DNA of 37,908 nucleotides from Vicingaceae bacterium (lineage in GTDB: Bacteria; Bacteroidota; Bacteroidia; Flavobacteriales_E; Vicingaceae). The notes beneath the pieces were generated by a model. It ran no database searches and was not told the DNA's origin. It saw only the letters and a list, made by a program, of their open reading frames with translations. Numbering within the stretch: the first letter of the stretch is position 1; every line of letters starts with the position of its first letter. A program made the position numbers and the translations under genes. Of this stretch, positions 22,788 through 34,922 are shown piece after piece. Where the stretch lies: positions 1 through 37,908 of the forward strand of contig JAQXDJ010000031.1 in the NCBI GenBank assembly GCA_029251425.1, read 5' to 3'.

Positions 22788-24008
22788 CTATCGCTTAAAA
22801 ACCTTAAATGTTTCCTGTTTGGTTTCAGAAACTACTTTTACAAAATAAACTCCTTGGTTTAAGGGTTGTAGTTTTAAATTAACGGTTTTAGTCTTATTTA
22901 CTTTCTTTGTCTGAAGAATTTTACCCAATACATCATAAACCAAAACAGTTAATTCTTCTTCTCTTTTGTTTGAGGAGAAATTAAACTGGTTTTTCGAGAA
23001 AAACCCTTTCCAGTTGTTTTTCACCTCCAACTCTTCCGAACCAACATTAACAGGAATACTTACTTTTAAAACTACAGGCAAATGATCTGACATGTAATAA
23101 AGCGCATCAATTACATTGCTTGGTGCAGCATTGTTTGTTCCTGAATTAATTGATTGGTTAAAATGATTACCATCGTTACCAACAGCGGTATAAGAACCCG
23201 GCACATAAGTTAGCCCTTGAGTCCCAGTTTGTAATTGATCATTAAAAAATATAAAGTCAAAACGGTCATCCATCCCCCCAGAAGCACCACCATCCCCAAT
23301 GCTCGAAGAACGAGTACTTTGCGTATGAATACTTGCAAAAGAAGAATTATTATTCCAACTTCCAGGAGAAGAAATAGGGTCTAACAAAGGAACATTTCCT
23401 CCATTTAAAATTGTATTGTAGGCAGGTTCTGCGCTTGTATATAAATTAAAATCACCTCCTAAAATCACATTTTCGAGATCAGCTCGTGAATCTAAATAAT
23501 TTTTAAAAACACCTGCTTCCTGGTTTCTTTTTTGCTCATTAGTAACTCCAGAACTGGCTTTTAAGTGTGCAGAATAGCAAAAAATAAAAACAGTATCAGA
23601 GCTGGCTGTCATGTTTGGTGCTTTATAATACAACACGTACTCACTAATGTTTCTTAAGGCTGTTGGTATTTCTTTTTGACTATACAAAACAAGTTTGTCA
23701 GAGTTAAAATACAACATGTTGTTCGTGTCTGGTCCCGAAAAAAATGTTGCTCGTAAATAATTTGTAACACCATCAACATTTAATGCGTCCGTTAAAATTG
23801 TTGTTGCACCAGCAGAAGATTCCAGCTCATTTATTAAAAAAATATCGGGCTGAACATGTTTGATAATCGGTTTTAGTGTGTCTGCTTTTGAAGTGTTAGA
23901 TGACGGATAATTTAACACGTTATAAGTCATAACAGTTAAAGTGTCTTGGGAGTTAGCTCCAAGCGCCAAACTCAGTAATATAATAAACAAAACTATTCTC
24001 ATCATCAA
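22788..24008 (-). CDS. Secreted endonuclease/exonuclease/phosphatase (EEP) family protein with T9SS C-terminal sorting domain
   Basis: Signal peptide; EEP motifs TYNVLNY, INELES, LGGDFN, SDHLPVVL; C-terminal LTVLVYDVLGKILQTKKV...LQPLNQGVYFVKVVSETKQETFKVFKR resembles T9SS type A. Confidence 0.92.
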   Translation of the reverse strand: MMMRIVLFIILLSLALGANSQDTLTVMTYNVLNYPSSNTSKADTLKPIIKHVQPDIFLINELESSAGATTILTDALNVDGVTNYLRATFFSGPDTNNMLYFNSDKLVLYSQKEIPTALRNISEYVLYYKAPNMTASSDTVFIFCYSAHLKASSGVTNEQKRNQEAGVFKNYLDSRADLENVILGGDFNLYTSAEPAYNTILNGGNVPLLDPISSPGSWNNNSSFASIHTQSTRSSSIGDGGASGGMDDRFDFIFFNDQLQTGTQGLTYVPGSYTAVGNDGNHFNQSINSGTNNAAPSNVIDALYYMSDHLPVVLKVSIPVNVGSEELEVKNNWKGFFSKNQFNFSSNKREEELTVLVYDVLGKILQTKKVNKTKTVNLKLQPLNQGVYFVKVVSETKQETFKVFKR

Positions 24009-24011
24009 TAA

Positions 24012-25076
24012 TTATTTCAAGGGGTTGTCAAGTTCTTTAATTAAAAACATATAAACCGGAAAGTGGTCACTATAGCCGCCCACATAAGTTCCAAAAGAAT
24101 AAGTTCTATAAGGGTACCCTTTGTATCGGCCTTCAGTACTTTTTAAATAAGGCTTATTAAACACCTTTGATTTATAAAGTTTAAAAGAGGAGTAGTCTTT
24201 TCCTAAAAGAGGTTTAGACACCATGATTTGATCAAACAAATTCCATGCATCGCGATAAGCCAAAGTCCCTATCCCTTTTTTATAATAACTTTCCCAGGGA
24301 TTAAACAGATCTCCTTTTCCTAGTTTTTCCTCTTTTCCGTTTCCTCGTAAATGTTTTTTTACACTTTCATCTACAGGGTCATCATTTAAATCTCCCATAT
24401 AAAATACTTTTGTTTTAGGGTCATTCTTTTGTAAAGAATCAACAATCATTCTACCTAATTTTGCCGCAGAGGCCCTTCTTGGTTTACTTCTTTTTTCACC
24501 ACCTCTACGTGATGGCCAATGTGCTACAATTACATGAATTTTTTCCCCATTTAACAACCCACTTACGAGTAGTTGATCCCTTGTGTAAAATGTTGTATCA
24601 ATATTTCTTAAAGAAAAGCTTTTGCTAGATGTAACTTCAAAATACTTGGGGTTATATAATAGGCCAACATCAATTCCTCTTCTGTCTGGAGAATCATAAT
24701 GAACTACCTGGTAGTTTCTGTTTTTAATGCTTTCTGATTTTACTAAATCTTCTAAAACACTTTTATTTTCAACCTCTGAAACTCCTAAAATTGCAACTCC
24801 GTCTGGTGTTATTTCTGTTCCGATTTCACCAATAACTTTAGCCATGTTTACCAACTTTTCTTGATAATGCTCTGATGTCCACGCTTTATTCCCTTTTGGC
24901 GTAAAGTCCTCTTGTAAAATTTTATTTGGATCTGGATCAATTAATGTATCAAAAAGGTTTTCTAAATTATAAAACCCAATTCCTGTAACTAAATATTCCT
25001 TTTTTTGCTCTTGTGAAAATGTATTCCCTAAGATAGCGGTAGCAAGGATTATTGATAAAATAAAGTGTTTCTTCAT
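24012..25076 (-). CDS. Secreted endonuclease/exonuclease/phosphatase (EEP) family protein
   Basis: MKKHFILSIILATAILGNTFSQ signal peptide starting at 25076 (track start 25145 appears too long); EEP motifs FYNLENLFD, LGVSEVEN, AHWPSRRGG, MGDLNDDP, YSDHFPVYM. Confidence 0.92.
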   Translation of the reverse strand: MKKHFILSIILATAILGNTFSQEQKKEYLVTGIGFYNLENLFDTLIDPDPNKILQEDFTPKGNKAWTSEHYQEKLVNMAKVIGEIGTEITPDGVAILGVSEVENKSVLEDLVKSESIKNRNYQVVHYDSPDRRGIDVGLLYNPKYFEVTSSKSFSLRNIDTTFYTRDQLLVSGLLNGEKIHVIVAHWPSRRGGEKRSKPRRASAAKLGRMIVDSLQKNDPKTKVFYMGDLNDDPVDESVKKHLRGNGKEEKLGKGDLFNPWESYYKKGIGTLAYRDAWNLFDQIMVSKPLLGKDYSSFKLYKSKVFNKPYLKSTEGRYKGYPYRTYSFGTYVGGYSDHFPVYMFLIKELDNPLK

Positions 25077-25320
25077 TGTATATTTTTTTGCAAAGTAACT
25101 AATTTCAAATTTATGGTTTTTGTTTTGTTCAATTCTCAATGTCAATTTTCTGTTAACTAATTATCAACAATTTAGTTGTTTTGAATATTTTATCATTTTT
25201 AAAACTTAATTTTGATTTGTTGTTTATTTCTTTATAATTAACAGCAAAAAGTGAACACCCTATGAAGCATTCCAACTAAGTCTTCAAACCGCTTTATTTT
25301 TATACTTTTTTATAACACAA

Positions 25321-27855
25321 ATGAGAATAATAAAAATATTATCGGCAACTGTTGTTTTTACAACGCTTTCAGCAAGTGCACAAACAACACCATCTTCTAT
25401 TTCAAATGAAGATAGTACCGAAAATGCAACAACTATACCAGCCTTCACAACATCGTTAGATTTATTAGAGGGTGATGCGCAAGCTCAAGATGTTTCAGGT
25501 CTATTACAATCTTCAAGAGATGTTTTTTCAAATATCGCTGGATTTAATTTTAGTGCTGCTCGTTACCGAGTTAGAGGTTATGATTCTGAAAACTTTTCTG
25601 TAAGTATGAATGGTGTTTCACTAAATGAACCGGAAGGAGGGAGAGCTATTTGGGCTTTTTGGGGTGGTCTAAATGATATTACACGAACTCAGGAGTCAAA
25701 GGCAGGAATTAGCTCTTCTCCATATAGTTTTGGAGGTATTGGAGGATTTTCAAACATTGACTCTAGAGCAACAGCTGTAAGAAAAGGAACGAGAATTTCT
25801 TATGCGTCTGCGAATAGATCTTACCGAAACCGTGTTATGGTTACACACTCTACCGGAATGATGGAGAATGGTTTTGCAATTGCAGTATCTGCATCTAAAA
25901 GGTGGGCTGGAGAAGGTTATATTGATGGGACTTTTTATGATGGAGGTAGTTATTTACTTTCTATAGAAAAAAAGATTAATGACAAACACACCATCGGTTT
26001 GGTTGGATATGGAGCTCCCACAGCAAGAGGAAAGCGAAGTATTTCTACACAAGAAGCCTACGATTTAACTGGAAACAATTACTATAATTCATATTGGGGG
26101 TATCAAAACGGAAAAAAAAGAAACTCAAGAATTAGAACAAACCACAAGCCTAGAATTATGTTAAATCATTATTTTAAGGTTAATGAGAAAACAAATATTA
26201 ATACTTCTACTTATTACTCTTTCGGAAAAGAAGGAAATACGAGATTAAATTGGTACAGTGCTGCAGATCCTCGCCCTGATTATTACAGAAACCTTCCTAG
26301 TTACTATAACAATCCTGGGGATGAATTTTTATTTGAACAACAAACCAACCTTTGGGAGTCTAATGACCCATTAGCAACACAACTTGATTTTGATCAAATG
26401 TATTTTGCAAACACTAAAAACCTTTTTACACTTTCTAATGCTGATGGTGTCGCTGGGAATAGTGTTACAGGAAATCGTGCAAAATATATAATTGAAGAGG
26501 CGAGAAAAGATGTTACACACTATGGGGTTAACATGAATGCTTCCCATAAACACAGTGAGCAAATAATGATAAATGGTGGTTTAGATGTAAGTATTTATAA
26601 AAGCAATAACTATAAATTAATAGACGACCTTTTAGGTGCTGATTTTTGGGTAGATGTTGATCAGTTTGCTGAAAGAGATTTTGCTGATGAAACTATTGCT
26701 CAAAGCGACATAAACAATCCCAACAGAATCGTTAAAGAAGGCGATCGTTTTGGGTATGATTATGATATAAACATAAACACATATAAAGGTTTTGGTCAAA
26801 TTGAAGGAACCTCAAAAAAGATAGATTGGTTTGCGGCCCTATCTTTAACAAGTACTTCTTTTTGGAGAACAGGAAACTATCAAAATGGTTTGTTTCCAGA
26901 CAACTCACTAGGTGATTCGGAAAAACAAAGTTTTTTTAATTATGGAATTAAAGGTGGTGCTATTTACAAACTATCAGGAAGACATTTGATTCGATTAAAT
27001 GGGGCACATTTAACAAGAGCTCCCTTTTCAAGAACTGCATTTGTCTCTCCAAGAACAAGAGATCAAGTTGTGCCAGACCTAGAAAGTGAAAAATTAATGT
27101 CTGGAGACATTAGTTACCTTGTTCGTTACCCTAAATTAAAAGCAAGAGCAACTCTGTTTCACACAACACTTAAGGATAAAACTTGGAGCAGAAGTTTTTA
27201 TAATGATGAATTAAACACTTTTGTTAACTATATGATGACTGGAGTTGATCAGGTTTTCACTGGCCTTGAATTTGGTGCTGAAGCAAATGTTACATCAACA
27301 ATTATAGTGACTGGAGCTTTTGCAACGGGAAAATTTCTTTATGACTCAAGACCTACCGCAACTATTATTCAAGACAACTCAACAGAGCTGCTTGCTGAAG
27401 ACAAAACTGTTTATTTTAAAAACTTTAGAATTGGAGGAATCCCCCAAACAGCAGCTTCAATTGGTGTACAATACAGGTCTCCTAAATATTGGTTTGTGGG
27501 TACTAACTTTAACTATTTTGCAGACATCTATTTAGATGCTAACCCCGACAGAAGAACAGAAGAGGCTATTTCTAAATATGTTTCTTCAGACCCTCAGGTT
27601 AGTGAAATTGTTGACCAAACAAAACTAGACAACGATTACACACTTAACTTGTTTGCTGGAAAATCGTGGAAATTAAAGGATAAATACTTTATTAGATTAA
27701 ACGTTAACGTTAACAATGTTTTGGATAATACAGATTTCCAAACGGGTGGTTTTGAACAATTAAGGTACGATCAAAACGAAATAGGAAAGTTTCCACCAAT
27801 GATAGGTTATATGTTGGGAAGAACATATTTTGCAATGGTTAGTTTATCTTTTTAA
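25321..27855 (+). CDS. TonB-dependent receptor
   Basis: Signal peptide, plug-like segment SGLLQSSRDVFSNIAGFNFSAARYRVRGYDSENFSVSMNGVSLNEPEGG, long beta-rich barrel ending in aromatic GRTYFAMVSLSF. Confidence 0.94.
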   Translation: MRIIKILSATVVFTTLSASAQTTPSSISNEDSTENATTIPAFTTSLDLLEGDAQAQDVSGLLQSSRDVFSNIAGFNFSAARYRVRGYDSENFSVSMNGVSLNEPEGGRAIWAFWGGLNDITRTQESKAGISSSPYSFGGIGGFSNIDSRATAVRKGTRISYASANRSYRNRVMVTHSTGMMENGFAIAVSASKRWAGEGYIDGTFYDGGSYLLSIEKKINDKHTIGLVGYGAPTARGKRSISTQEAYDLTGNNYYNSYWGYQNGKKRNSRIRTNHKPRIMLNHYFKVNEKTNINTSTYYSFGKEGNTRLNWYSAADPRPDYYRNLPSYYNNPGDEFLFEQQTNLWESNDPLATQLDFDQMYFANTKNLFTLSNADGVAGNSVTGNRAKYIIEEARKDVTHYGVNMNASHKHSEQIMINGGLDVSIYKSNNYKLIDDLLGADFWVDVDQFAERDFADETIAQSDINNPNRIVKEGDRFGYDYDININTYKGFGQIEGTSKKIDWFAALSLTSTSFWRTGNYQNGLFPDNSLGDSEKQSFFNYGIKGGAIYKLSGRHLIRLNGAHLTRAPFSRTAFVSPRTRDQVVPDLESEKLMSGDISYLVRYPKLKARATLFHTTLKDKTWSRSFYNDELNTFVNYMMTGVDQVFTGLEFGAEANVTSTIIVTGAFATGKFLYDSRPTATIIQDNSTELLAEDKTVYFKNFRIGGIPQTAASIGVQYRSPKYWFVGTNFNYFADIYLDANPDRRTEEAISKYVSSDPQVSEIVDQTKLDNDYTLNLFAGKSWKLKDKYFIRLNVNVNNVLDNTDFQTGGFEQLRYDQNEIGKFPPMIGYMLGRTYFAMVSLSF

Positions 27856-27876
27856 CCCTGTAAATATTAAATTATT

Positions 27877-29151
27877 ATGAAAATGACATTTACTAGAAAA
27901 ATATTAAGCGCTGTTTTGGTTATCGGTATCACTCTTTTTACTGCTTGTAAAAAAGATTTCGATACGGTTCCTGTAAAAGAATTGCCCGAAGGAAATATAA
28001 TTACAATAGATTCTTTAAGAAAAATTTATACAGCTTTTGACACAACAATCACTAATGACATTTCAATTTATGGTGTTGTTACTGCAGATGCTGTAACAGG
28101 AAATATTTATAAAGAATTGTATATCCAAGATGAAACAAATGCCATTAAGCTGGAACTTCTTTCTTCTGCCGATTTTTTTATTGGAGACAGGGTAAGGGTT
28201 GCAATAAAAGGAGCAACAGTTAGAAGAGATAGGGATATGATTGTGTTAGACAGCATCAACCCAGATATCGCAATAATAAGACAAGAACAAAATCAAGATT
28301 TAACTCCTGAAGTAGTTACAATAGACTCTTTAATCCTTATTGATATCTTTGCTTCAAAATACCAAGGTAAATTAGTGCAAATTAACAATGTTGAATTTGA
28401 TTGTGCTGACGCGTGTAAAACTTGGGCTGATGGAATTGGCCAAAGAGACGAAAACAGAGTGTTAATTGATACAATGGGAAACTCTATAGTTGTAAGGTCT
28501 AGCGGTTTTTCTACATTTGCTGGAGACAACCTTCCTTTTGATCAAGGCTCTATTGTTGGTGTTGTTTCTCAATACGATGGAACCGTTCAGTTAACAATCA
28601 GAAACCCAAATGAATTTATTGTTTCTAACACGAGAAAATCAACATGCACTCCTTGTCCTGCATTTACATATACTAAAGATTTTGAAGATGAAAGTATTAC
28701 TTCTGGTGGTTGGATTCAACAAAATATTGCTGGAAACATCAGTTGGGAGGCTAGCGACCAAGGCTCTCACCCTAGTTTTTATGGAAGAATTTCTAACTAT
28801 AATGGTAGCAGCAATGTTGCTTGCGAAACTTGGTTGGTTTCTCCAGCCTTTGATTTATCTAACACCACAAACCCAGAATTCTTTATGGAGTCGGACGTAA
28901 ACTACAGTGGTGCGGACTTAGAGGTTTATATTACGACAAACTTTACTGGAGATGTTACAACAACATCTTGGACGCAACTTTCTGTTCCATTAGACCCTGA
29001 CAATTCTGGTTGGAACACTTTTTATCCTTCTGGAGCGGTTAGTCTTGTAAGCTATAAAAGTTCAGGAGTAAGGGTTGCGTATAAGTATGTTGGAAGTTCT
29101 TCAAATGGACAAACATGTGAAATTGATGATATTAAAATTATTGATCTATGA
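27877..29151 (+). CDS. DUF5689 domain lipoprotein with choice-of-anchor J-like C-terminal domain
   Basis: Lipobox LFTACKKDFD; ISIYGVVTADAVTGNIYKELYIQDETNAIKLEL OB-like DUF5689 region; FEDESITSGGWIQQNI...WLVSPAFDLSN C-terminal domain. Confidence 0.88.
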   Translation: MKMTFTRKILSAVLVIGITLFTACKKDFDTVPVKELPEGNIITIDSLRKIYTAFDTTITNDISIYGVVTADAVTGNIYKELYIQDETNAIKLELLSSADFFIGDRVRVAIKGATVRRDRDMIVLDSINPDIAIIRQEQNQDLTPEVVTIDSLILIDIFASKYQGKLVQINNVEFDCADACKTWADGIGQRDENRVLIDTMGNSIVVRSSGFSTFAGDNLPFDQGSIVGVVSQYDGTVQLTIRNPNEFIVSNTRKSTCTPCPAFTYTKDFEDESITSGGWIQQNIAGNISWEASDQGSHPSFYGRISNYNGSSNVACETWLVSPAFDLSNTTNPEFFMESDVNYSGADLEVYITTNFTGDVTTTSWTQLSVPLDPDNSGWNTFYPSGAVSLVSYKSSGVRVAYKYVGSSSNGQTCEIDDIKIIDL

Positions 29152-30365
29152 AAAATTTATTAAAAAATTATAGCGCTATTTTTATTCTGATTGCTCTATT
29201 TACTTCGTGTAAAAAAGACTATGAAGATCCAACAATAAAAACAGTAGCCACAGGAAGTGTTCAAACAATTGCTCAGGTAAGAGCTTTGTATCAACCAGGA
29301 AAAACAATAAAAATAGCAGAAGATATTTCTGTTTATGGTGTGGTTACCATGGATGAGAGTACGGGAAACCTGTATAAAGAATCATACATTACAGATGGGA
29401 CAGGAAATTTATACTTACGCTTTACAACAGGAAGCGGTCTGTACATTGGCGACTCTGTTAGGGTAAATCTTAATGGTGCTAAAATTTTAAAGTATAACCA
29501 AATGCTTCAGGTTGACTCCCTTCACCCAGACAACAGTGTGGTCAAGTTGTCTACTCAAAACTATGTTACCCCAGAAACTATTTCTATTTCTTCTTTATTG
29601 GCTGATTTAGAGGGTTCTCAGGGAAAACTAGTTAAAATTGACGGTGCATTTTTTGCAGAAGGAGGTTTAGGTTTAAGTTATGCGGATGGAGAGAATCAAG
29701 TTTCAGAAAGTAGATATTTATTTGCGCTAAACGGAGATGAAATAGAGGTAAGAACAAGTGGGTATTCTAATTTTGCTGATGACACCCTTCCTAGTGGAAG
29801 TGGTAAATTTATTGGTGTTGTTGCGCAATACAATGATGGATTACAATTGTTAATTAGAGATCCTCAAGAGTTAGAAATGGACGGTGAAGCCCCTCTTTTA
29901 AAAACATTTAATGATCAAAGTATTACTTCTGGAGGTTGGACAACACAAGTTGTTACCGGCCCTTTTAATTGGATTACTAATGACCAAGGGTCTAGTTCTC
30001 ATTATGCTGCATTAACAAATTATGACAATGGAAACACAGCGTCTGAGGTTTGGTTAATTTCCCCATCATTTAATTTTAGTAATTCAACAGCACAAAGTTT
30101 AAGTTTTAAAAATGCCTCAAACTATAACGGTCCAGACATAGAGGTTTATGTTTCAACAAACTATGATGGGGCAAGTTTACCAAACACAGCAACATGGTCA
30201 CAATTAAGCGCAAACCTTTCTGGTGGAGGTTTTGAGTGGGTCTCTTCGGGAATTATTAATCTTTCTTCTTTTACAGGTGCCAATACTTATATTGCAATTA
30301 AATACACAGGCACAGCTTCTGATGGAAAAACCTGGGAGCTTGACAATATCATTATAAATAAATAA
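29148..30365 (+). CDS. DUF5689 domain lipoprotein, tandem paralogue of the preceding gene
   Basis: Lipobox LFTSCKKDYE; ISVYGVVTMDESTGNLYKESYITDGTGNLYLRF; FNDQSITSGGWTTQVV...WLISPSFNFSN; start overlaps the upstream stop by 4 bp (ATGA). Confidence 0.88.
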   Translation: MKNLLKNYSAIFILIALFTSCKKDYEDPTIKTVATGSVQTIAQVRALYQPGKTIKIAEDISVYGVVTMDESTGNLYKESYITDGTGNLYLRFTTGSGLYIGDSVRVNLNGAKILKYNQMLQVDSLHPDNSVVKLSTQNYVTPETISISSLLADLEGSQGKLVKIDGAFFAEGGLGLSYADGENQVSESRYLFALNGDEIEVRTSGYSNFADDTLPSGSGKFIGVVAQYNDGLQLLIRDPQELEMDGEAPLLKTFNDQSITSGGWTTQVVTGPFNWITNDQGSSSHYAALTNYDNGNTASEVWLISPSFNFSNSTAQSLSFKNASNYNGPDIEVYVSTNYDGASLPNTATWSQLSANLSGGGFEWVSSGIINLSSFTGANTYIAIKYTGTASDGKTWELDNIIINK

Positions 30366-30401
30366 CTTTAACAATATCTTTTAATATTAAAACTATCAAT
30401 T

Positions 30402-31808
30402 ATGAAAAAACTCTTTACTCTTTTATTTGCTGCTTCACTTGGCTCTATAGCTATTGGGCAAACAGTATTTACAAGTAACTTAAGCTCTTGGAATATGGGA
30501 GACCCAACAGACTTTATGGGCCCTAACACAAGTATCGCGTCAAGCAGTGTTGTACAAACTTCAACTGGAGCAAACTTTGGCTCAGACATGGCTGCCCTAA
30601 TAAATAGCACAACTTCTCACAAAAGGTTCACTACAGAAAGTACTGCTGTTGTTGGCGGAACAACTTATACTATTAAAATTTGGGTATCAGGTAACACTGG
30701 AGAATTGAGAACAAATTATTATGATGAAACTGATGGAACAACAGCGGGTTATGGAACGTATAATTCTTATGTTACTATTTCTGGGGCTCAAACTATTGTT
30801 TCTCAATCAGTAACAGTTCCTAGTACGTGTAATGATGCTCAGTTTATTTTATCTTTAAGAAACACTGATGCAACCGGAATTCTTGTTGATTCCGTATCTG
30901 TAACTGCAGGAGGAACTACTCCTCCGCCAACAGGTATAACTTCTATTTATGATATTCAATTTACAACGAATACTAATGGAGACTCTCCAGAGGTAGGAAA
31001 TGTAGTTACAACAAAAGGTGTGGTTACGGCATATATCAACAACACTGCTAATTTTGGTGGGGGAAGTTTCTTTATTCAGGATGGAAACGGATCTTGGAAT
31101 GGATTATATATTTACAACCTAGACACTACTAGAACTCCATTTGTTGGAGATAGCGTTGAAGTAACAGGAACTGTTATTGAGCACAACTTAGGTTCGGCTC
31201 CAGAAAATGTTACAGAACTTGGTTCAGTAACTAATGTTAATGTTATTAATTCAGGTAACACACTCCCTTCAGAAACGATTGTAACTACTGGCGCTGCAAA
31301 CAGAGAAGAATACGAAGGTGTTTTAATTAAAGTGGTTAATGCAGAAGCAACTTCTGTTGGTTCAACTTTAGGTTTTGGATTATGGGAAATGAATGATGGT
31401 TCTGGCGCTTTAAAAGGTGATGATGATATGTATGCTTTTCACACCCAAGCTATTTTAGGTTCTGACTATGACGTTACAGGTATTGGTCACTATTCTTTTG
31501 ATGACTACAAAATTTTACCAAGAAAAACAAGTGATGTTGCCTTGTTTACTGGTGTTGACGAATTAAGTGGTGTAAAAGTGGTTGTTTACCCCAACCCGGT
31601 AAAAGGCATGTTAAACTTTAAGTTAGATGTTAACGGATTTAATGTTCAGATTATTGACGTAACAGGAAAAACGGTTAGAACAGAAAACACGATAAACAAC
31701 AAGCTAACAGTTAATACTGAAAACTTAAACAACGGTTTTTATTTTTACAGCATCTCTGATGTTAATGGAAATTTAATTTCTACCAATAAATTTATTGTTG
31801 CTAAATAA
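30402..31808 (+). CDS. Secreted OB-fold (ExeM/NucH-type) protein with T9SS type A C-terminal sorting domain
   Basis: Signal peptide; DIQFTTNTNGDSPEVGNVVTTKGVVTAYI...SFFIQDGNGSWNGLYIYN...VGDSVEVTGTVIEHN...TELG; C-terminal VYPNPVKGMLNFKLDVNGFNVQIIDVTGKTV...LNNGFYFYSIS. Confidence 0.87.
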   Translation: MKKLFTLLFAASLGSIAIGQTVFTSNLSSWNMGDPTDFMGPNTSIASSSVVQTSTGANFGSDMAALINSTTSHKRFTTESTAVVGGTTYTIKIWVSGNTGELRTNYYDETDGTTAGYGTYNSYVTISGAQTIVSQSVTVPSTCNDAQFILSLRNTDATGILVDSVSVTAGGTTPPPTGITSIYDIQFTTNTNGDSPEVGNVVTTKGVVTAYINNTANFGGGSFFIQDGNGSWNGLYIYNLDTTRTPFVGDSVEVTGTVIEHNLGSAPENVTELGSVTNVNVINSGNTLPSETIVTTGAANREEYEGVLIKVVNAEATSVGSTLGFGLWEMNDGSGALKGDDDMYAFHTQAILGSDYDVTGIGHYSFDDYKILPRKTSDVALFTGVDELSGVKVVVYPNPVKGMLNFKLDVNGFNVQIIDVTGKTVRTENTINNKLTVNTENLNNGFYFYSISDVNGNLISTNKFIVAK

Positions 31809-31830
31809 TAAACGCTATTAATTATAGTAA

Positions 31831-31860
31831 AAGGCGAACCAAATGGTTCGCCTTTTTTTA
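31831..31860 (+). terminator. Rho-independent terminator of the TonB/DUF5689 operon
   Basis: 10-bp perfect stem AAGGCGAACC / GGTTCGCCTT with AAAT loop (31831-31854) followed by a T-run. Confidence 0.9.
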
Positions 31861-31895: not shown

Positions 31896-33788
31896 ATGTC
31901 TATTAAGATTAATTCATTAGAAGAATACCATCAACAATACCAAAAAAGTATAGAAAACCCAGAGAGTTTTTGGAGCGAAATTGCTGAAACTTTTACTTGG
32001 AAAAAGAAATGGGAGACTGTTTTAGATTGGAATTTTGAGGAACCAAAAATAGAATGGTTTAAAGGGGCTAAATTAAACATCACAGAAAATTGTTTAGACA
32101 GACATTTAGCAACTCAAGGAAATAAAACAGTAATTATTTGGGAGCCGAACAACCCAAATGACAAGACTATAAAACTAACCTACAAAGAGCTTCATCAAAA
32201 AGTTTGTGCGTTTGCTAATGTCTTAAAAAACAATGGTGCTAAAAAAGGAGATAGGGTTTGTTTGTATATGCCAATGGTTCCAGAATTGGCAATTGCGGTT
32301 TTAGCTTGTGCGAGAATTGGAGCAATACACTCTGTTGTGTTTGCTGGGTTTTCTGCCAAAGCTCTTGCTGATAGAATTAATGATGCCACATGTAATATTG
32401 TTATCTGTTCTGATGAGGCTTATCGTGGGACGAAAACTATTCCCATAAAAACCGTTGTTGATGAAGCTTTAAAAACCTGTCCAACTATCAAAAAAAATAT
32501 TGTATTAAAACGAACGGGCGCTACTGTTATTATGAATCAAAAAGATGTTTGGTGGCATGAGGAAATAGAAAAAGTGAACGAAAATTGTGTTGCGGAAAAA
32601 ATGGATGCAGAAGATGACCTTTTTATTTTATACACTTCTGGTTCTACAGGAAAGCCAAAGGGTGTTGTTCACACTACTGCTGGTTATATGGTTTATACAA
32701 ATTACAGCTTTCAAAATGTTTTTCAATATGAAAAAGATGATGTTTATTGGTGTACTGCAGATATTGGTTGGATTACAGGACATTCTTACATTATATATGG
32801 TCCTTTGTTAGCTGGAGCCACAACGGTTATGTTCGAGGGTGTTCCAACTTGGCCAGATGCAGGAAGGTTCTGGGAAGTTATAGATAAGCACCAGATAAAT
32901 ATTTTTTACACAGCTCCCACAGCCATAAGAGCTTTACAAGCTTGTGATATCAGCTTTGTAAACAAACACAAACTAAGTTCTTTAAAGGTGTTGGGAAGCG
33001 TTGGTGAGCCTATTAATTTAGAGGCCTGGGATTGGTATCATAAAAACATAGGCAAGGGTAATTGCCCAATAGTTGACACCTGGTGGCAAACAGAAACTGG
33101 CGGTATTATGATTTCGCCATTGGCAGGAATTACACCTTTAAAGCCAACTTATGCAACCCTTCCTTTACCTGGAATACAACCTTGCTTGGTCGATGCTGAA
33201 GGAAATGAAATTGAAGGAAACGATGTTGAGGGAAACCTTTGTATAAAACACCCTTGGCCCTCTATGTTAAGAACCATTTACGGTGATCACAAAAGATGTG
33301 CAGCTGTTTATTTCTCTACCTATAAAGGAAAATACTTTACTGGTGATGGTTGTAAAAGAGATGAAAATGGAATGTACAGAATTACAGGAAGGGTTGATGA
33401 TGTTATTAATGTTTCTGGACACAGAATAGGAACAGCAGAAATAGAAGACGCTTTAGATACACATCACAATGTTGTTGAAACAGCTGTTGTTGGCTTTTCT
33501 CACGAAATAAAAGGGCAGGGAATTTATGCTTATGTTATTTGTGCCAAAGAAGTAAATGAGAACGAGCTAAGAAAAGAGTTGTTAGTTCAAATTACCAAAG
33601 AAATTGGTCCCATAGCAAAACCAGATAAAATTCAAATTGTTAGCGGACTGCCCAAAACAAGGTCAGGAAAAATTATGCGTAGAATTTTAAGAAAAATTGC
33701 AGAAGGAGACACTTCCAACCTAGGAGACACGAGCACATTACTAGATCCAACCGTGGTTGAAGAAATTAAAACAGGAAGGGTTAATTAG
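31896..33788 (+). CDS. acs: Acetyl-coenzyme A synthetase
   Basis: LFILYTSGSTGKPKGVVHTTAGYM, YWCTADIGWITGHSYIIYGPL, VDTWWQTETGGIMISP, RVDDVINVSGHRIGTAEIE, KTRSGKIMRRILRK. Confidence 0.97.
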   Translation: MSIKINSLEEYHQQYQKSIENPESFWSEIAETFTWKKKWETVLDWNFEEPKIEWFKGAKLNITENCLDRHLATQGNKTVIIWEPNNPNDKTIKLTYKELHQKVCAFANVLKNNGAKKGDRVCLYMPMVPELAIAVLACARIGAIHSVVFAGFSAKALADRINDATCNIVICSDEAYRGTKTIPIKTVVDEALKTCPTIKKNIVLKRTGATVIMNQKDVWWHEEIEKVNENCVAEKMDAEDDLFILYTSGSTGKPKGVVHTTAGYMVYTNYSFQNVFQYEKDDVYWCTADIGWITGHSYIIYGPLLAGATTVMFEGVPTWPDAGRFWEVIDKHQINIFYTAPTAIRALQACDISFVNKHKLSSLKVLGSVGEPINLEAWDWYHKNIGKGNCPIVDTWWQTETGGIMISPLAGITPLKPTYATLPLPGIQPCLVDAEGNEIEGNDVEGNLCIKHPWPSMLRTIYGDHKRCAAVYFSTYKGKYFTGDGCKRDENGMYRITGRVDDVINVSGHRIGTAEIEDALDTHHNVVETAVVGFSHEIKGQGIYAYVICAKEVNENELRKELLVQITKEIGPIAKPDKIQIVSGLPKTRSGKIMRRILRKIAEGDTSNLGDTSTLLDPTVVEEIKTGRVN

Positions 33789-33818: not shown

Positions 33819-34922
33819 TTAAGCCAGCTTATACATTTTTCCTGGAAGCGATTTTACTAAACCATCAAACTCTAAGTTTAACAGTAAAGATGTTGTTTGG
33901 CTCATGGTCATTTTTGCCAACAAAGAAAGTTCATCAACCCCTATTTTATCTTGTTTAGACAGTATTGCAGTGATCGTTTTTTGCTCTGGTGTGAGTTCTA
34001 AAAACAACTGTGTTTGTGTTTGAGCCACCTTCTTTTTAGTTTGCCAGCCCATTACATACTCAATATCTTTAGCTGACTGTATTAATGCAGCTTTATGGCT
34101 TTTTATAAGGTTGTTGCACCCTTCAGACTGACTATCTCCTAACCTTCCTGGTAGAGCAAACACATCCCTATTATAATCGTTTGCGATGTAAGCGGTAATT
34201 AACGAGCCCCCTTTTTTACTAGACTCTACAACAATTGTTAAATCAGACATTCCTGCAACAATTCTGTTTCGTTTCGGGAAGTTTTCTCTATCCGGCTTAG
34301 TTCCGCTTTTAAAATCAGAAAGCAAAGCGCCTTTTTCAGTCATTTGATTCGCGACACTTTTGTGTTGTGCAGGATAGAGTCTGTCAAGGCCGTGAGCCAA
34401 GACACCAACTGTTGATAAGTTGTTTTTTATAGCAGCTTTATGTGCACAAACATCTATACCATAAGCAAGGCCACTAACAACTGTTGGGTTGTGTGGTGCT
34501 AAATCTTTAATCAGCTGATCACAAAAACCTTTACCATATTCCGTTGCTTTTCGTGTTCCAACCACACTAATAACCTTTTGGTTATTAAAATCGATATTTC
34601 CTTTTGAATATAACAACACAGGTCCGTCCTCGCAATGTAATAGTCTTCTTGGGTAATTATCATTTAAGAAAAACAGAGGTGTTATTTCGTTTTTTGAAAT
34701 GAAACCAAGCTCTTCCTCTGCTATGGCCAGAGCCTCTGTTTTATGTTGAATAATTTTGTTTGCGTTTACAGGCCCTATTCCTGGTATTTTTTCTAAAACA
34801 CTTTTTTTCTCCTTAAAAACCTGCTCAGAGCTACCACAATAAGCAATTAGTTTCTTTGCTGTAACATCTCCGATGTTGGGAATTGAAGTAATTGCGATAT
34901 GATAAAGTAGCTGTTCGTTCAT
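33819..34922 (-). CDS. dprA: DNA-processing protein DprA (Smf)
   Basis: N-terminal HhH-like segment KIPGIGPVNANKI, Rossmann core VVGTRKATEYGKG, VSGLAYGIDVCAHKAAI, NRIVAGMSDLTIVVESSKKGGSLITA, ALPGRLGDSQSEGCNNLI, C-terminal winged-helix-like region. Confidence 0.96.
   Translation of the reverse strand: MNEQLLYHIAITSIPNIGDVTAKKLIAYCGSSEQVFKEKKSVLEKIPGIGPVNANKIIQHKTEALAIAEEELGFISKNEITPLFFLNDNYPRRLLHCEDGPVLLYSKGNIDFNNQKVISVVGTRKATEYGKGFCDQLIKDLAPHNPTVVSGLAYGIDVCAHKAAIKNNLSTVGVLAHGLDRLYPAQHKSVANQMTEKGALLSDFKSGTKPDRENFPKRNRIVAGMSDLTIVVESSKKGGSLITAYIANDYNRDVFALPGRLGDSQSEGCNNLIKSHKAALIQSAKDIEYVMGWQTKKKVAQTQTQLFLELTPEQKTITAILSKQDKIGVDELSLLAKMTMSQTTSLLLNLEFDGLVKSLPGKMYKLA

Follow-up and report, generated by a model that had tools for sequence, protein, structure and literature searches.

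The genes considered here lie in a window of 37,908 nucleotides, i.e., positions 1-37,908 of contig JAQXDJ010000031.1 of the Vicingaceae bacterium assembly GCA_029251425.1, in which six genes, all open and intact, extend from arm to arm over positions 22788-31808 and diverge from a shared intergenic region (25077-25320). The leftward arm encodes two exported EEP-superfamily enzymes, EEP1 (22788..24008, minus strand; Pfam Exo_endo_phos and a T9SS tail, Por_Secre_tail) and the nuclease-like EEP3 (24012..25076, minus strand; Pfam Exo_endo_phos_3, E 8e-123; signal peptide and no T9SS tail), which might be extended to position 25145 by use of a TTG start. The rightward arm encodes a TonB-dependent receptor (TBDR; 25321..27855, plus strand; Pfam TonB plug), two paralogous lipoproteins, each composed of an OB-like DUF5689 domain and a C-terminal choice-of-anchor-J domain (27877..29151, plus strand, Pfam E 7e-44; 29148..30365, plus strand, Pfam E 4e-41), and a secreted T9SS protein with an OB-fold region of the ExeM/NucH type and a weak CBM4_9-like region (30402..31808, plus strand). 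The rightward arm is closed by an intrinsic terminator (31829..31856, plus strand) with a 12-bp stem followed by T-rich sequence. The initial annotation had described the six genes, the common intergenic region and the strong terminator, and Pfam assignments and coordinates bear this out. Beyond the locus follow a gene for acetyl-CoA synthetase (31896-33788) and, at a distance of 2 kb, dprA (33819..34922, minus strand), encoding the recombination mediator of natural transformation. The dprA gene, a structured leader RNA upstream of the receptor and the choice-of-anchor-J domains of both lipoproteins were missing from the initial annotation.

For the receptor, the Pfam plug assignment and an AlphaFold2 model (pLDDT 87) place a plug domain inside a large beta-barrel, as in TonB-dependent transporters, and the best PDB matches of the model are PqqU, Fiu and FhuA. 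By sequence, EEP1, EEP3, the receptor and DUF5689 have no relatives in the PDB. The model of the DUF5689 protein (pLDDT 92) resembles cleaved-adhesin and MAM-like jelly-rolls in its C-terminus. Since the Foldseek search returned mainly this C-terminal jelly-roll, the OB assignment is based on profile comparison, which revealed an OB-type region shared by DUF5689 and the OB protein, and on the match of the latter to the ExeM/NucH nuclease family (NF033681; 39 bits, E 4e-10), which covers the OB region only and lies below the cut-off of 300. Extracellular nucleases of the ExeM/NucH type likewise combine an EEP domain with OB-type regions (PMC6085458), whereas here these functions are split over separate proteins around a receptor. 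We propose that the DUF5689/anchor-J lipoproteins are surface DNA binders, and the OB-fold T9SS protein would be an accessory surface binder. The arrangement of surface lipoproteins, secreted hydrolases and a TBDR also resembles SusCD polysaccharide utilization loci. The initial annotation had drawn this parallel while pointing to the lack of SusD and glycoside hydrolases; indeed, neither SusD nor a glycan-degrading enzyme is found among the locus genes, which rules out a SusCD-type locus.

The view that no characterised system corresponds to this locus has to be revised. In Riemerella anatipestifer, transposon mutants were screened for natural transformation and an outer-membrane barrel (RA0C_RS04915) and a DUF5689 protein (RA0C_RS04920) were characterised; markerless deletion of either gene abolishes transformation, the frequency falling from 5.4e-5 to below detection at approximately 4e-10 (PMC8459023). 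Besides these two, the HHH protein, ComEC and DprA were shown to be essential, and the species is reported to be devoid of type IV pilus machinery (PMC8459023). Loss of tonB likewise reduces transformation in Riemerella (PMC8383284), in agreement with a TonB-dependent step. The TBDR of the window matches one Riemerella gene with 39% identity over 94% of the length (E 2e-140), the next-best Riemerella TBDR scoring only about 100 bits; genome G000 contains a single match to the receptor-family profile. In Riemerella the sole DUF5689 gene directly follows this best-matching TBDR, and the gene order, i.e., comEC, two further genes and EEP3 divergent from TBDR-DUF5689, fits the locus tags RS04895 (comEC) to RS04920 exactly. 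As the Riemerella genome compared, located via a primer sequence printed in PMC8383284, is that of CCUG25054 and not of ATCC 11845, the tags were assigned by gene order and domains. On these grounds of sequence and synteny, we regard the TBDR and DUF5689 genes of the window as orthologs of RA0C_RS04915 and RA0C_RS04920.

Both loci thus share the receptor followed by a DUF5689/anchor-J lipoprotein and the divergent EEP3, and both genomes encode ComEC, DprA and an HHH protein. In contrast, the Riemerella receptor carries an N-terminal carboxypeptidase-regulatory domain, there is only one DUF5689 gene, neither EEP1 nor the OB gene adjoins, and comEC instead of dprA is located nearby. The Riemerella DUF5689 ortholog (L053:9887-11296) scores 590.8 bits against the NCBIfam model NF052645 (M949_1556 lipoprotein), above its cut-off of 475 bits, whereas the two window proteins remain below it (168.6 and 121.8 bits). 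According to work cited in PMC12566107, the M949_1556 gene is said to affect antigenicity and pathogenicity; given that the ortholog matches M949_1556, roles in transformation and as surface antigen may overlap. Homologs are also present in F. johnsoniae, yet attempts to transform this species failed under the conditions used (PMC8459023).

The initial annotation had suggested a comparison of genome neighborhoods, and this revealed a conserved unit across the Bacteroidia. A receptor profile search resulted in full-length orthologs (threshold >500 bits, table counted by hand) in 76 of 296 Bacteroidia genomes from 17 families, and one further receptor is split across two frames. The scores are bimodal, the next matches below the orthologs reaching approximately 260 bits or less. 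For the neighboring genes, 85 loci were read directly using six-frame translations. DUF5689 directly follows the receptor in 81 of the 82 loci with enough sequence, and EEP3 is encoded within 10 kb of the receptor in 70 of 84 loci (in the other 14 it was not found within this distance), being the divergent neighbor as in the window in 59 of the 84. Elsewhere EEP3 stands in line before the receptor (two loci) or after the operon, which shows that the association survives rearrangement. The recurrence of this layout in 17 families argues against chance. The OB gene is less widespread (33/77 loci) and EEP1 occurs mainly in the family of the window. In several genomes (L111, L124, L126) the gene downstream of DUF5689 encodes a protein of ~740 amino acids that is weakly similar to OB proteins and perhaps replaces the shorter one. 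In L140, the ortholog is accompanied at ~8 kb by another receptor paralog, which is more distant, and an additional EEP3 copy is encoded nearby.

Within EEP3, the residues N60, E62, E124, H209, D252, N254, D305, D360 and H361 (numbered from the TTG start) are found in 100% of 71 orthologs, and from knowledge of the superfamily we take them to be catalytic. Moreover, most EEP3 orthologs have a signal peptide, and in those inspected the SDH catalytic motif is immediately followed by the C-terminus, no T9SS tail being present. Taken together, these features suggest that EEP3 is a periplasmic enzyme. It is a candidate for the strand-processing nuclease (dsDNA to ssDNA) that is lacking in the Riemerella model. 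In the Riemerella study RS04910 (EEP3) served as transcription control only, and its deletion is not reported there (PMC8459023). EEP1 is predicted from its domains to be an accessory surface or secreted nuclease.

Regarding the downstream machinery, the genome of the window encodes ComEC (outside the window), DprA and, elsewhere, a ComEA-like multi-HHH protein that bears a membrane anchor at its N-terminus and is built like the Riemerella protein fitting RS02645. ComEC was detected in 291 of 296 genomes; being nearly universal, it says little when taken by itself and was dropped as a discriminating marker. In genome G019 of the same family comEC lies ~7 kb from the receptor, and suggestively, among the matches listed, comEC was placed within ~32 kb in 4 of ~46 TBDR-positive genomes, distances being compared by hand. 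Linkage of dprA to the locus was observed in the window and in two or more congeners, and was seen only in this genus.

We therefore consider it likely that the locus is an outer-membrane DNA-uptake module for pilus-independent natural transformation of the type described for R. anatipestifer, a reading by analogy to the Riemerella genetics. As in the type IV pilus/PilQ competence systems of Vibrio and Neisseria, the module would feed ComEC, DprA and RecA and make use of a periplasmic HHH DNA binder; however, outer-membrane passage would proceed via a TBDR and not via a secretin and a retracting pilus. A point against DNA import is that secreted nucleases could destroy the incoming DNA.

The initial annotation had favored nutritional scavenging, i.e., that surface nucleases shorten DNA, RNA or other organophosphates and the TBDR imports the fragments as source of phosphorus, nitrogen or nucleosides. 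The presence of OB-type binders and of two EEP enzymes, of which EEP1 with its T9SS tail is a candidate surface nuclease, would fit this explanation, as would the patchy distribution of the receptor even inside one genus. However, the orthologs are essential for transformation, a process that needs long DNA (PMC8459023), and dprA lies in the window, so that scavenging is not the primary reading. Furthermore, phosphate removal lowers transformation in Riemerella (PMC8383284), and a Pfam scan of the locus genes revealed no gene for a phosphatase, nucleosidase or SusD. Of the original proposal, the nucleic acid, most likely DNA, is thereby retained as substrate, while nutrient acquisition is improbable as the main role; use of DNA as nutrient is possible as a second role. 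Less probable still is uptake of another ligand such as a metal chelate, a peptide or a glycan with only an indirect effect on transformation. In its favor, the closest solved folds of the receptor are siderophore, PQQ and copper transporters, Riemerella tonB mutants show lowered transformation that is partly ascribed to iron (PMC8383284), and the jelly-roll at the C-terminus of DUF5689 proteins is similar to carbohydrate or adhesin modules. Against it, fold matches of this kind (8-13% identity) are what TBDRs in general would give, the partners of the nuclease and OB type are retained from family to family, and the markerless Riemerella mutants gave zero transformants (PMC8459023).

For a module of DNA uptake, we infer that DNA is the molecule passing the receptor and that the organism of the window is competent. 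The surface DUF5689/anchor-J lipoproteins would bind extracellular DNA, aided by the T9SS OB-fold protein, with EEP1 as a possible DNA-cleaving enzyme on the cell surface. TonB would open the plugged receptor, allowing dsDNA to enter the periplasm, where the ComEA-like HHH protein would hold it while EEP3 might degrade or trim one strand. ComEC would subsequently pass the single strand to the cytoplasm, where DprA would load RecA.

The expression of the receptor operon might be under the control of its leader. The sequence TAATTTTG (25207..25214, plus strand), kept in the genus, is a candidate for the Bacteroidota -7 promoter element, for which the consensus TAnnTTTG was described (PMC9723704). 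Between this conserved element and the receptor start codon lies a structured leader RNA of ~46 nt (25249..25294, plus strand), which ends 26 nt 5' of the TBDR ATG and comprises an outer stem AAGUG/CRCUU, a conserved internal strand and a covarying inner hairpin. A single CRP-like match in the window corresponds to the chance expectation and was discarded. The first model of the leader was built from receptor copies. The leader pattern is absent from shuffled sequences; of ten related genomes, eight have it at the receptor gene, and G003 contains an additional copy. Across 13 copies 97% of the cells are paired compared to 33-57% in slid controls, and in 28 sequences, with diverse genomic copies added, 61 double-change cells were counted vs. 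24 +/- 4.6 in shuffled and at most 20 in slid controls. In the family, 21 of 46 genomes contain the leader. Within the genus, it is present in each of the nine genomes with a receptor, while among five congeners without receptor one has a weak match in which the conserved core is missing. Model R2 also detects it ahead of receptor genes from a second family (L102:8434-8500, L131:1273-1335, L144:8366-8432 and L105:6653-6714; E 3e-9 to 2.5e-4), and L104 and L101 give weaker matches in this position, bringing the range of lengths to ~46-67 nt.

Other copies are located 5-66 nt before genes that, judged by eye, mostly encode secreted proteins, suggesting a surface-protein regulon. Among such genomic copies are those in L188, L219, L221-L224 and L226-L235, and the copy in L220 precedes a SpoIIE-phosphatase-like gene. 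No matching family was found in Rfam, and this RNA is apparently undescribed. It probably controls expression of the receptor operon, and its conserved, covarying 5'-leader structure is consistent with a riboswitch, for which ligand binding would be expected, or with another cis-regulatory RNA.

The system itself is a variant of the Riemerella-type module, and the new elements are the conserved nuclease partner and the leader RNA. A wider interpretation, which we put forward tentatively and regard as rather doubtful in its entirety, is that of a class-wide TBDR importer of dsDNA with EEP3 as the missing periplasmic nuclease that makes ssDNA, and of a small regulatory RNA of a new class, ~40-65 nt long and perhaps a riboswitch, by which DNA uptake would be controlled jointly with T9SS surface proteins. 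As a summary, two genes named by Riemerella genetics belong to a unit that is conserved across at least 17 families, and the leader RNA may set the timing of receptor-operon expression. This bears on how Bacteroidota without type IV pili bring DNA through the outer membrane.
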